A stretch of DNA of 64,000 nt from Chloroflexota bacterium (lineage in GTDB: Bacteria; Chloroflexota; Limnocylindria; Limnocylindrales; CSP1-4): positions 1 through 64,000 of the forward strand of contig JAJYGH010000065.1 of assembly GCA_021785175.1 (NCBI GenBank), read 5' to 3'. The position numbers and the translations under genes were made by a program. This document shows, piece by piece, positions 25,875-29,980 of this stretch. Below the pieces are notes generated by a model. It had not been told where the DNA came from and did no database searches. It was given only the letters and a program-made list of their open reading frames with translations. Each line of letters starts with the position of its first letter. The first letter of the stretch is position 1.

Positions 25875-26459
25875 TCAGCCGGCTGGCGGCACCAGGTAGG
25901 CGAGCACGAGCTGGCTCCACGTCTCCATCCGCTCGTACGCCGACCACAGTTCGTCGGGGCCCGCGAACGCCCCCGACAGCTTCTCGGTCTCGCGGATCGC
26001 GACCGGACGACCACGTGCGTCCACCTCGTAGACGAGCCCGAGGTGCACCGCGCCGACCGAGTCGCTGTCGTCGTTGAGCAGGCCGAGCATCCGGACGTCC
26101 GGGTCGAACGCCGTCTCGAGCTCCTCGTGCCACTCGCGCAGGAGCGCACCCGCGATCCCGCGATCGCCTGGGTTCACGTGGCCCCCGACGCCGATCGTGA
26201 AGCGCTCGTGCAGCCGCTCGTCGCCGCCGGCCCGCGTCCGACGCATGAGGAACACGGACCGGCCGTCCCGGATGACGACGTACGGGATCAGCTGCTTCCA
26301 GCCCGGATCGTGCTCCGCCTCTCCTCGGCGCCGGAAGGACGCCGCGTCCAGCGCGCGCGCCACGATCTCGTGCGCGCCGTCCTCCCGCACGCCCCGCCAG
26401 CCCCGGCCCTCCCACAGGAGCGCGCGGGGAGCCCCGAGGACGAGTTCGTCGTCAGCCAT
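25875..26459 (-). CDS. Nudix-like phosphohydrolase
   Basis: A 194-residue MutT/Nudix-fold protein resembling the predicted MutT-like phosphoesterase group. It has IPYVVIRDGRSVFLMRR followed by GVGGHVNPGD and REWHEELE. The Nudix box is atypical: the first Glu is replaced by Asp or Gly and the spacing before REWHEEL is one longer, so activity and substrate are uncertain. Starting at ATG 26459 gives an 8-bp overlap with tyrA, implying coupling. No link with tyrosine synthesis is evident. Confidence 0.75.
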   Translation of the reverse strand: MADDELVLGAPRALLWEGRGWRGVREDGAHEIVARALDAASFRRRGEAEHDPGWKQLIPYVVIRDGRSVFLMRRTRAGGDERLHERFTIGVGGHVNPGDRGIAGALLREWHEELETAFDPDVRMLGLLNDDSDSVGAVHLGLVYEVDARGRPVAIRETEKLSGAFAGPDELWSAYERMETWSQLVLAYLVPPAG

Positions 26460-27339
26460 TCCGCTCGACCAGCGCCGCACGGACCTGCGCGAATCGCTCC
26501 CGAAGCTGGCGCTCCGGATCACCGGCTGCGCGAGCGGTCCCGGCCGCCACCGGCGGAATGGACGCCACCTGCTCGCGCCAGGACGCCAGCGTCGCGGCGA
26601 ACCGGTCGAGCCAGGCGAGGATCTCGTCGCGGTTCAGCGCGATCATCCCGACACCGAGGTCCGGGTCCCCCCGCGCGACGCGCGTCGTGTCGCGCCAGCC
26701 GCCCGCCGCGAGCCGCGCCGCCTCGGGCCAGCTGTCCGCCGTCGTCACCGCCTCGGCCAGCGCGGCAGCGACCACGAGCGGCAGGTGGCTGGTCGCGGCG
26801 ACCAGCCGGTCGTGCTCCCAGGGCTCGAGCGCGATGGCCCGAGCCCCGCACGCCGCGACGAGCGCATGGGCCCGCTCGAGGTCGTCGGGCCCGGCGGACG
26901 GCGAGGGCAGCACGATCCATGGACGGCCCGCGAAGAGATCGGCCCGGGCGGCCGCGTATCCGCTCGCCTCGACGCCGGCCATGGGGTGGCCCCCGACATG
27001 CCGGAGCCCGGGCACCTCGGCCGCCGCGCGAGCCATCACGCCCTGGGCTGACGTGACGTCGAAGAGCGTCGCGCCCGAGGAGGCGATGGCCGGCCCGAGC
27101 GCGCGGACGAGCTCGACGTTGGCGAGCGGCGTCGCGGCGAGGAGGACGAGTTCGGCGCCCGAGACGGCATCCTCCGCCGACGGCGCCACGGCGTCGACGA
27201 CACCGTCGGCAAGGCCCTCCTGTGGCCCTTCCTGCGAGCGGCTCCATGTCGTGACGTGCCAGCGCCCTGCGTCGCGTGCCGCGAGCGCACGAGCGACGGA
27301 CCCACCGATGAGCCCGAACCCGATGATCGAGAGCCTCAT
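26452..27339 (-). CDS. tyrA: Prephenate dehydrogenase
   Basis: Oxidative decarboxylation of prephenate (or arogenate) towards tyrosine, NAD(P)-dependent. The 295 residues begin with the Rossmann motif IIGFGLIGGSVARAL. The block VGGHPMAGVEASGYAAA, with its catalytic-region histidine, lies near 125, and SHLPLVVAAALAEAV follows in the helical dimerisation domain. There is no ACT or chorismate-mutase extension. The ATG at 27339 lies 7 nt after TACACT with no Shine-Dalgarno. Substrate preference for prephenate versus arogenate cannot be told. Confidence 0.9.
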   Translation of the reverse strand: MRLSIIGFGLIGGSVARALAARDAGRWHVTTWSRSQEGPQEGLADGVVDAVAPSAEDAVSGAELVLLAATPLANVELVRALGPAIASSGATLFDVTSAQGVMARAAAEVPGLRHVGGHPMAGVEASGYAAARADLFAGRPWIVLPSPSAGPDDLERAHALVAACGARAIALEPWEHDRLVAATSHLPLVVAAALAEAVTTADSWPEAARLAAGGWRDTTRVARGDPDLGVGMIALNRDEILAWLDRFAATLASWREQVASIPPVAAGTARAAGDPERQLRERFAQVRAALVERNG

Positions 27340-27346
27340 GGCCACG

Positions 27347-27352
27347 AGTGTA
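27347..27352 (-). promoter_or_regulatory. -10-like hexamer before tyrA
   Basis: Minus-strand TACACT, identical to the topA hexamer, 7 nt before the tyrA ATG. Confidence 0.4.
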
Positions 27353-27497
27353 CGGGCGCGGCGATCGTCTCCGAGGCCCCGGCCGGACGTCCAGGCGCGG
27401 CTGGTGGCCGGTCCCTGTCGACGCCGGCGGCATGCCGGACCGGGCCTCGCCATGCAGGGGCCGGAACGCGATCGGGTGATATCCTCCGGCCTCAACG

Positions 27498-27509: not shown

Positions 27510-28199
27510 TTGCCGGTTCCGCAGCACACGCCGATCCGGGTCCTGCTCGTCGACGACCACCAGCTGCTCACGGACGCCCTGTCGCGCGTCCTCGAGCGGG
27601 AGCCGGACATCCAGGTCGTCGGCGTCGCCCCGACCGTCGGCGACGTCAGAGAGGCGCCCCGGACGGGCGTCGACGTCGTTCTCATGGACTACCGGCTGCC
27701 CGACGGCACCGGCTCCGAGGCGACGCGCATCGTGAAGGCGCGATGGCCGAGCGCCAAGGTGGTCATGCTCACGGCAATCGCCGACGACGAGACCGTGCTC
27801 GAGTCGATCCAGGCCGGCGCCGACGGGTACCTGACCAAGGATCGGGCGGTCGCCGAGGTCGTGCAGGCTGTGCGCTCGGCACACGCCGGCGACATCCTGC
27901 TGCCCCGATCCGTCATCGTCGACATCGCGCGGCGCGTCGTGGCGGCGCGGGACCGCCAGCAGGACCGCGTCCTCGTCGAGCCGCTCACACCCCGCGAACT
28001 CGAGGTCCTCCGGGCGCTCACCGAGGGCCTCGCCTCTCCCGAGATCTGCGAGCGGCTCGGCATCACGCCGAACACGCTCCGCACGCACGTGCAGAACATC
28101 ATGGGCAAGCTGCACGTCCACTCGAAGCTCGAGGCGGTCGCGTTCGCGCTGCGGCACCGGCTCGTCGAGCCGCCGCGGCCCGAGGGTTCGCTCTTCTAG
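27510..28199 (+). CDS. NarL/LuxR-type response regulator
   Basis: A 229-residue regulator. The receiver has VLLVDDHQ, phosphoacceptor VVLMDYRLPDGTG near residue 60 and Lys in GYLTKD. The C-terminal LuxR helix-turn-helix contains LTPRELEVLRALTEGL and ICERLGITPNTLRTHVQNIM. The first codon is TTG at 27510. It is supported by GGAGG 7 nt upstream and by the lack of any later ATG before the receiver core. It is a lone plus-strand gene and no histidine kinase is adjacent, so its partner is encoded elsewhere. Confidence 0.92.
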   Translation: MPVPQHTPIRVLLVDDHQLLTDALSRVLEREPDIQVVGVAPTVGDVREAPRTGVDVVLMDYRLPDGTGSEATRIVKARWPSAKVVMLTAIADDETVLESIQAGADGYLTKDRAVAEVVQAVRSAHAGDILLPRSVIVDIARRVVAARDRQQDRVLVEPLTPRELEVLRALTEGLASPEICERLGITPNTLRTHVQNIMGKLHVHSKLEAVAFALRHRLVEPPRPEGSLF

Positions 28200-28278: not shown

Positions 28279-29637
28279 TCAGACGCTCGGAACGGCGCTC
28301 AGCGCCTCGCGGACGGCCTCGGCCGGGAACTCGTAGTCCTCGAGCTGCCCCGCGAGGTACCGCTCGTACGCGGACAGGTCGAAGTGGCCGTGGCCGGAGA
28401 GGCCGAACAGGATGACGCGCGGCGTCCCCTGCTCGCGTGCCTCGATCGCCTCGTCGATCGCGACGCGGATCGCATGCGCCGACTCGGGCGCCGGGGCGAT
28501 GCCCTCCGTGCGGGCGAACTGGACGCCGGCCTCGAAGGTCGGGCGCTGGTGGACCGCCTTCGCCTCGATGATCCCCCGCTCCCTCAGCAGGCTCACCAGC
28601 GGCGACATGCCGTGATAACGGAGCCCGCCGGCGTGAATCGGCTCCGGGATGAAGTCGTGGCCGAGCGTGTACATCTTGACCATCGGCGTCAGCTTCGCCG
28701 TGTCGCCGAAGTCGTACTCGTAGACGCCGCGCGTCAGCGTCGGCGCGGCCTCCGGCTCGACCGCGACCACGCGGTACTTCGCCTCGCCGCGCAGCATCTG
28801 CCCGACGAACGGGAACGCGAGCCCGCCGAAGTTCGAGCCACCGCCTGCGCAGGCGATGATGACGTCCGGCGCCTCGCCCGCCATCTCCATCTGCTCGATG
28901 GCCTCGATCCCGATGACGGTCTGGTGCAGCAGCACGTGGTTGAGCACCGACCCGAGCGAATAGCGCGTGTCGTCCCGTCCCGCTGCGTCCTCGACGGCCT
29001 CGCTGATCGCGATCCCGAGCGACCCCGGGCTGTGTGGGTGCTCCTCCAGGACCCGGCGGCCATACGTCGTCGTGGGACTCGGGCTCGCCACGACCTCGGC
29101 GCCGTACAGCTCCATGAGGTTCCGGCGGTACGGCTTCTGGTCGTAGCTCGCCCGCACCATGTAGACCTTGACCTCGAGCCCGAACAGGGCGCCGGCGAAC
29201 GCCAGTGCGCTCCCCCACTGACCCGCTCCCGTCTCGGTCGCGAGGCGGCGCACGCCCTCCTGTCGGTTGTAGAACGCCTGCGCGATCGCGGTGTTCGGCT
29301 TGTGGCTGCCGGCCGGGCTCGTGCCCTCGTACTTGTAGTAGATGTGCGCCGGGGTATCGAGCGCGCGCTCGAGCCGGTGCGCCCGGAAGAGCGGGGCCGG
29401 CCGGTAGAGGCGGTAGGCGTCGCGGACCGGCGTGGGGATCTCGATCTCCGGTTCGGTGCTCACCTCCTGCCCGATGATCGCCATCGGGAAGAGTGGGGCG
29501 AGGTCGGCGGGGCCGATCGGCTGCCCGGTCCCGGGGTGGAGGACGGGCGCGGGCGGCTCGGGCAGGTCGGCGACGATGTTGTACCAGGCCTTCGGGATCC
29601 GGCTCTCGTCGAGCAGGAACTTCGTCTGCTGGCTCAT
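28279..29637 (-). CDS. trpB: Tryptophan synthase beta, TrpB2 type
   Basis: PLP enzyme joining indole and serine. The 452 residues fit the longer TrpB2 class. The PLP lysine is K113 in [14 protein letters not shown]. The glycine-rich phosphate loop is [14 protein letters not shown], and [12 protein letters not shown] lies near the C-terminus. The ATG at 29637 has GGAGG 8 nt upstream. A T-box leader with a UGG specifier precedes the gene, which independently ties it to tryptophan. No trpA is adjacent, fitting TrpB2 enzymes that act alone on free indole or have another partner. Confidence 0.93.
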
Positions 29638-29683
29638 GACGGTGCGCACCTCCGCTGGTGTCCCGGCCAAAGGCCCGGACGTG

Positions 29684-29716
29684 AAAACAGCCCCGTCCCG
29701 CGAGGGACGAGGCTGT
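29684..29716 (-). terminator. T-box intrinsic terminator
   Basis: Minus-strand hairpin pairing ACAGCCTCGTCCC with GGGACGGGGCTGT around a CGC-type loop, followed by TTTT. It is the off-state structure of the T-box. The competing antiterminator uses the GGTGGCACC region just upstream. Confidence 0.85.
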
Positions 29717-29969
29717 GACCTCGTGGTGCCACCCTACGTTCCGGCCGCGTCGCGGCCGCTCATTCCGCGGTCCGGGTCATCACCTGACGCCGTACCTGGC
29801 CCTGCGCTAACGGTGGGCCTCCGGCCCCGACTACTGCGCGTCCCCTCGGCCGCGGTTCGCGGGGGCGTCTCGCGGGTCCATTCCCCGTCCCGCCGGCGGC
29901 GCCGGCTTCCACCATCCCGGCTCGCTGTGGCCCGCGGTTGACGGGTACTCGTCCCGGTCAACGACTGTC
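29684..29969 (-). promoter_or_regulatory. Tryptophan T-box riboswitch
   Basis: On the minus strand the leader shows the Stem I element GACGAGTA and a specifier loop GGAATGGACC with the codon TGG at 29880-29878. The T-box core AGGGTGGCACCACG lies at 29735-29722, and a terminator hairpin ends in TTTT. Uncharged tRNA-Trp should pair with TGG and with the T-box bulge to favour the antiterminator, so trpB2 is made when tryptophan is scarce. It is transcribed from a TAGATT -10 just upstream. Confidence 0.93.
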
Positions 29970-29974
29970 GGGCG

Positions 29975-29980
29975 AATCTA
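29975..29980 (-). promoter_or_regulatory. -10 element of the trpB2 leader
   Basis: Minus-strand TAGATT. A start about 7 nt downstream coincides with the first bases of T-box Stem I. Confidence 0.45.

Follow-up and report, generated by a model that had tools for sequence, protein, structure and literature searches.

A closely similar system is described in Dehalococcoides, where the main text of Wels et al. 2008 (PMC2494555) places tryptophan T-boxes before trpE and before a trpB-like gene. On the strength of that report, the arrangement was therefore already known in the phylum, and the view of the first-pass annotation of our DNA, i.e., that T-boxes on a lone TrpB2 are uncommon outside Firmicutes, does not agree with it. 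Transcriptional T-boxes characteristically have a long Stem I (PMC7583486). Here, we describe a leader with such a stem in the window (the whole stretch of 64,000 nucleotides analysed, from a contig, with a GC content of 73%, of a Limnocylindria-like Chloroflexota MAG). Very probably, it is a true riboswitch of the T-box type, specific for tRNA-Trp and in control of a stand-alone trpB2.

Anatomy and conservation of the trpB2 leader

The T-box proposed at 29684-29980 is indeed present, on the minus strand. The covariance model RF00230 could be aligned end to end (model positions 1-219 of 219) to positions 29970-29700, with a score of 57.4 bits and E-values of 5.5e-12 in a 501-base scan and 7.0e-12 in a whole-genome scan. 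The scan suggested by the first-pass annotation thus gave a full-length and significant match, but one that lies under the Rfam gathering score of 93 bits, and a default Rfam scan reported nothing for the element. This gathering score is a curator's threshold and no structural feature. Among 61 related genomes, 41 have T-box matches and only one has a match above the cut-off (which was passed in 2 of 14 control genomes). The anomaly is therefore the Rfam threshold, rather than the trpB2 leader, and nearly all T-boxes of these GC-rich genomes are missed when the default is used. The leader and its gene comprise the following features:

29868..29964, minus strand: Stem I, long form, with AG bulge, distal GGUG loop and AGUA/GAA S-turn at the specifier loop (covariance-model alignment, pair list, compensatory changes in 10 leaders)
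29878..29880, minus strand: specifier codon UGG (Trp), read as GAA-UGG-A in the specifier loop and invariant in 10 leaders
29811..29865, minus strand: Stem II, with GAA/AGUAG S-turn, and Stem IIA/B region (covariance-model alignment, pair list; 4 of the 7 pairs in Stem II changed on both sides)
29742..29758, minus strand: Stem III (covariance-model alignment, pair list; paired in its own family, poorly aligned in the other family)
29703..29735, minus strand: antiterminator, AGGG-bulge-CGAG with CUCG-UCCCU (covariance-model alignment, pair list; -12.6 kcal/mol without tRNA)
29722..29735, minus strand: T-box sequence AGGGUGGCACCACG, with a UGGC (29731-29728) complementary to the terminal GCCA of tRNA-Trp
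29684..29716, minus strand: competing, terminator-like hairpin ACAGCCUCGUCCC-UCGC-GGGACGGGGCUGU with a short UUUU tail (fold of -25.7 kcal/mol; the tail varies within the genus)
29660..29680, minus strand: second GC-rich hairpin, downstream of the terminator-like one and upstream of the Shine-Dalgarno (predicted fold, in relatives too)
29641..29653, minus strand: Shine-Dalgarno and spacer GGAGGUGCGCACC, with predicted pairing to the T-box core GGUGGCACC (29733-29725)
28279..29637, minus strand: trpB2, encoding a TrpB-like PLP enzyme of 452 aa (TIGR01415, PRK12391)

Both sequence motifs named beforehand are found: the specifier UGG at 29880-29878, after the GAA of the S-turn and before an A, and AGGGUGGCACCACG at 29735-29722. 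UGG is a tryptophan codon, in agreement with the downstream trpB2. The tRNA-Trp of the same genome has the anticodon CCA and an encoded 3' end GCCA, to which the UGGC bulge is complementary. Hence, both contacts with the cognate tRNA are present. Further downstream, a Shine-Dalgarno GGAGG (29653-29649) precedes the trpB2 ATG at 29637. The second GC-rich hairpin (29660-29680) is predicted in all trpB2 leaders of the family with readable sequence at this place.

Our alignment comprises ten trpB2 leaders, drawn from two or more families; a combined set of trpE and trpB2 leaders, in which the G001 trpE row had been cut at the wrong place, was set aside. Standard pairs occupy 88.5% of the pair cells, and 13 pairs changed on both sides, a count reached in one of 500 shuffles. 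The covariation score was 0.211, compared with 0.086 in shuffles (none of 500 as high), and controls in which the structure was slid along the sequence were far worse (33-45% paired). Within the family, the specifier, the S-turns, the T-box sequence and the antiterminator are invariant. The competing hairpin also has compensated changes, with a number of double-changed pairs that was reached in 84 of 500 shuffles. The folding energy of the whole leader is not unusual relative to shuffles (z of -1.18), but this test is uninformative because GC-rich sequence folds well regardless. The anatomy, the determinants of specificity, their conservation and their covariation are established at the level of sequence.

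Distribution of the T-box and probable role of TrpB2

In the genus, the T-box lies ahead of trpB2 in all six genomes in which the gene was found. Beyond the genus, trpB2 is widespread in the family, but the T-box was found only in G022 and G079, with a sensitive rescan covering 15 T-box-free loci. Nearly all sister genera carry trpB2 but not the T-box, so the gene can do without this control. A similar T-box occurs in 10 genomes of another family of the class, with trpB2 behind it in all of them, and the specifier is UGG in the three cases checked (two of these 10 genomes and locus L076). A third family of the class provides one further case (G149). Outside the class, trpB2 T-boxes were found in loci of Dehalococcoidia, Anaerolineae, Caldilineae, Dictyoglomaceae (Dictyoglomota) and others, and this recurrence, together with that in Limnocylindria-like families, also speaks against rarity outside Firmicutes. 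When the presence of the T-box is mapped on the TrpB2 tree it requires at least seven changes, two of which are forced by well-supported branches. The T-box is therefore repeatedly gained or lost.

Other matches were found during these searches. Pattern matches to GGTGGCACCACGAG in G066, G072, G104, G127 and G030 were discarded as due to chance, with neither trpB2 nor trpE nearby. A Chloroflexi contig (L074:1560-1815) has a T-box just downstream of trpB2, where it fronts the next gene instead, and in another family of the class a T-box (L187, G060:C20:55176) is followed by what looks, by eye, like a tryptophanyl-tRNA synthetase gene. The genome of the window has a weak match restricted to the 3' half of the model (L086, G000:C40:292-349; 15.4 bits), located between a tRNA-Val(GAC) and an open frame whose product resembles, by eye, a threonyl-tRNA synthetase. 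This element has a UGGA bulge and a strong hairpin, its 5' half matches the model poorly, and the same thrS-like arrangement is seen in the genus relatives G001, G006 and G007. Four genus relatives (L156 in G006, L160 in G003, L161 in G007 and L153 in G001) have a further T-box with a UGGU bulge (AGGUGGUACCACG), behind which the gene reads by eye as a valyl-tRNA synthetase in some of them; the genome of the window, which is incomplete, yielded no T-box with this bulge.

The product of trpB2 scores above the cut-offs of TIGR01415 (655.3 bits, cut-off 518.85) and PRK12391 (735.1 bits, cut-off 366), with a full-length family match and the PLP lysine motif. Its nearest solved relatives are TrpB2-type chains (6hul, 4qys, 6hte), and the closest named ones come from Chloroflexi MAGs, some labelled Candidatus Limnocylindrales. 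As proposed, the T-box does front a trpB2, one that is separate from the trp operon and belongs to a genome other than Firmicutes. Downstream of trpB2, the minus strand carries a prephenate dehydrogenase gene (26452-27495); a response-regulator gene running the other way (27510-28199) separates the two. Because of this intervening gene, trpB2 is probably transcribed alone.

The first-pass annotation had recommended a look at the main trp operon, and a UGG T-box is found there as well (C65:2497-2780), ahead of trpE, trpG and trpD, with trpB1 and trpA downstream. The enzyme is thus not a lone TrpB in this genome, contrary to the initial description. The trpB2 gene and the trp operon, each under a UGG T-box, would make up a tryptophan regulon of two transcripts. 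The T-box would place trpB2 under the same tRNA-Trp signal as the operon. Although these uncultured bacteria have trpB1 and trpA as well, this is good circumstantial support for a role of TrpB2 in supplying tryptophan. The occurrence of the T-box throughout the genus likewise argues that trpB2 is expressed for this purpose, and TrpB2 presumably makes tryptophan. The earlier claim that it is a real tryptophan-supply enzyme is reasonable as an indirect reading of this kind.

The predicted switch and its output

The antiterminator (29735-29703) and the 13-bp hairpin (29716-29704 paired with 29699-29687) are mutually exclusive, the strand CCUCGUCCC being common to both. In computed folds without tRNA the hairpin is the more stable of the two (-25.7 versus -12.6 kcal/mol). 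We infer from the anatomy that the leader responds to uncharged tRNA-Trp: in Stem I the UGG specifier would pair with the CCA anticodon, and the UGGC bulge with the GCCA at the 3' end of the tRNA. Together, these contacts would stabilise the antiterminator and block the hairpin, and trpB2 would be expressed when tryptophan is scarce. Charged tRNA would be unable to form the second contact, the hairpin would form and expression would drop. This is the predicted direction of regulation, and the output is presumably at transcription, with possible masking of the Shine-Dalgarno. Of the terminator with a T-run that had been announced, the 13-bp hairpin is clear and the run is short, a UUUU with one of its residues paired. 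The nearest relative likewise has UUUU, the other members of the genus have AUUC, AACC, GUUCC or similar, and G149 of the third family has UUUUUUU. Judging from these tails, the lineage has a weak terminator by the standard of conventional poly-U tracts.

One might ask whether the element is a T-box at all. Its score under the Rfam cut-off would fit a chance resemblance within GC-rich DNA, but the genome-wide E-value of 7e-12, the covariation and the orthologous position in relatives leave this explanation a negligible probability, and we regard it as ruled out by conservation. It could also be a degenerate relic, i.e., an inherited T-box that lost its terminator U-tract and no longer switches, as the poor U-tails of most genus members and the absence of the T-box from most sister genera might suggest. 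This is very unlikely given that the family shows no variation in specifier, S-turns, T-box sequence or antiterminator, that changes in the hairpin are compensated, and that all six genus genomes with trpB2 have retained the T-box. A functional tRNA-Trp switch remains by far our preferred reading, and the weak tails bear on the level at which it acts.

The T-box might act mainly on translation. When the hairpin forms in the OFF state, it would free the core GGUGGCACC to pair with the Shine-Dalgarno and its spacer; uncharged tRNA-Trp would capture the core in an antiterminator-like fold and free the ribosome-binding site. About nine such pairs are expected in each of seven leaders of the family, and none of 119 background start regions reaches such pairing when grafted onto the G000, G005 or G022 leaders. 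The leader of G149, which has the seven-U tail, is at background (74/119). Duplex energies range from -16.5 to -18.9 for T-box-bearing genes of the family, against a mean of -10.5 for T-box-free orthologues, and variants on the Shine-Dalgarno side differ in letters while keeping the pairing in all cases. The trpE leaders give 0-3 pairs, and the poor U-tails also fit a translational output. However, these leaders represent at most three genera of the family, which are not phylogenetically independent, and the T-box side is invariant, so that there is no covariation. For a single lineage, chance complementarity may be the sole source of the pairing. Shuffles of single regions give only 0.003-0.036, bare duplexes of -18 are obtained for the trpE leaders of G001 and G006 too, and the second family is weak to intermediate in this pairing. 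Moreover, a Stem I of this length is what transcriptional T-boxes typically have (PMC7583486), and other T-boxes of the genus (valS) look U-poor too. On balance, we think a mainly translational action somewhat improbable, yet plausible enough to be kept in view. The modelled pairing suggests masking of the Shine-Dalgarno instead of, or besides, termination, and the output of the tRNA-Trp switch may be partly or wholly translational, a reading that rests on few independent lineages. Slightly more tentative still is the idea that the trpB2 T-box of this family has shifted from termination towards masking of the ribosome-binding site with its core as the masking strand, which would be a hybrid or new translational design outside Actinobacteria. 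If the pairing is real, the lineage offers a test case for the change of a T-box from transcriptional to translational output.

Comparison with described T-boxes and TrpB2 enzymes

The trpB2 leader resembles the class I transcriptional T-boxes for tryptophan (RF00230) in its long Stem I, UGG specifier, Stem II and IIA/B, Stem III and T-box sequence, and in the mutual exclusion of antiterminator and hairpin. It differs from them in being GC-rich, in scoring below the Rfam cut-off, in its short U-tail and in the possible pairing of the core with the Shine-Dalgarno. The Dehalococcoides T-boxes (PMC2494555), as far as the main text describes them, belong to the same phylum and have the same pair of tryptophan targets, but in a different taxonomic class, and the subtype of their trpB-like gene is not named in that text. 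The enzyme itself has the full-length match and the PLP lysine motif in common with other TrpB2/TrpB-like proteins (TIGR01415; 6hul, 4qys, 6hte). With the actinobacterial ileS translational T-boxes of class II (PMC1262725, PMC7583486), the leader may share an arrangement of hairpins that could control access to the Shine-Dalgarno. In most of these class II elements, Stem I is shorter and the hairpins are described as hiding the Shine-Dalgarno (PMC1262725, PMC7583486), whereas the trpB2 leader has a long Stem I and it is the T-box core itself that would mask.
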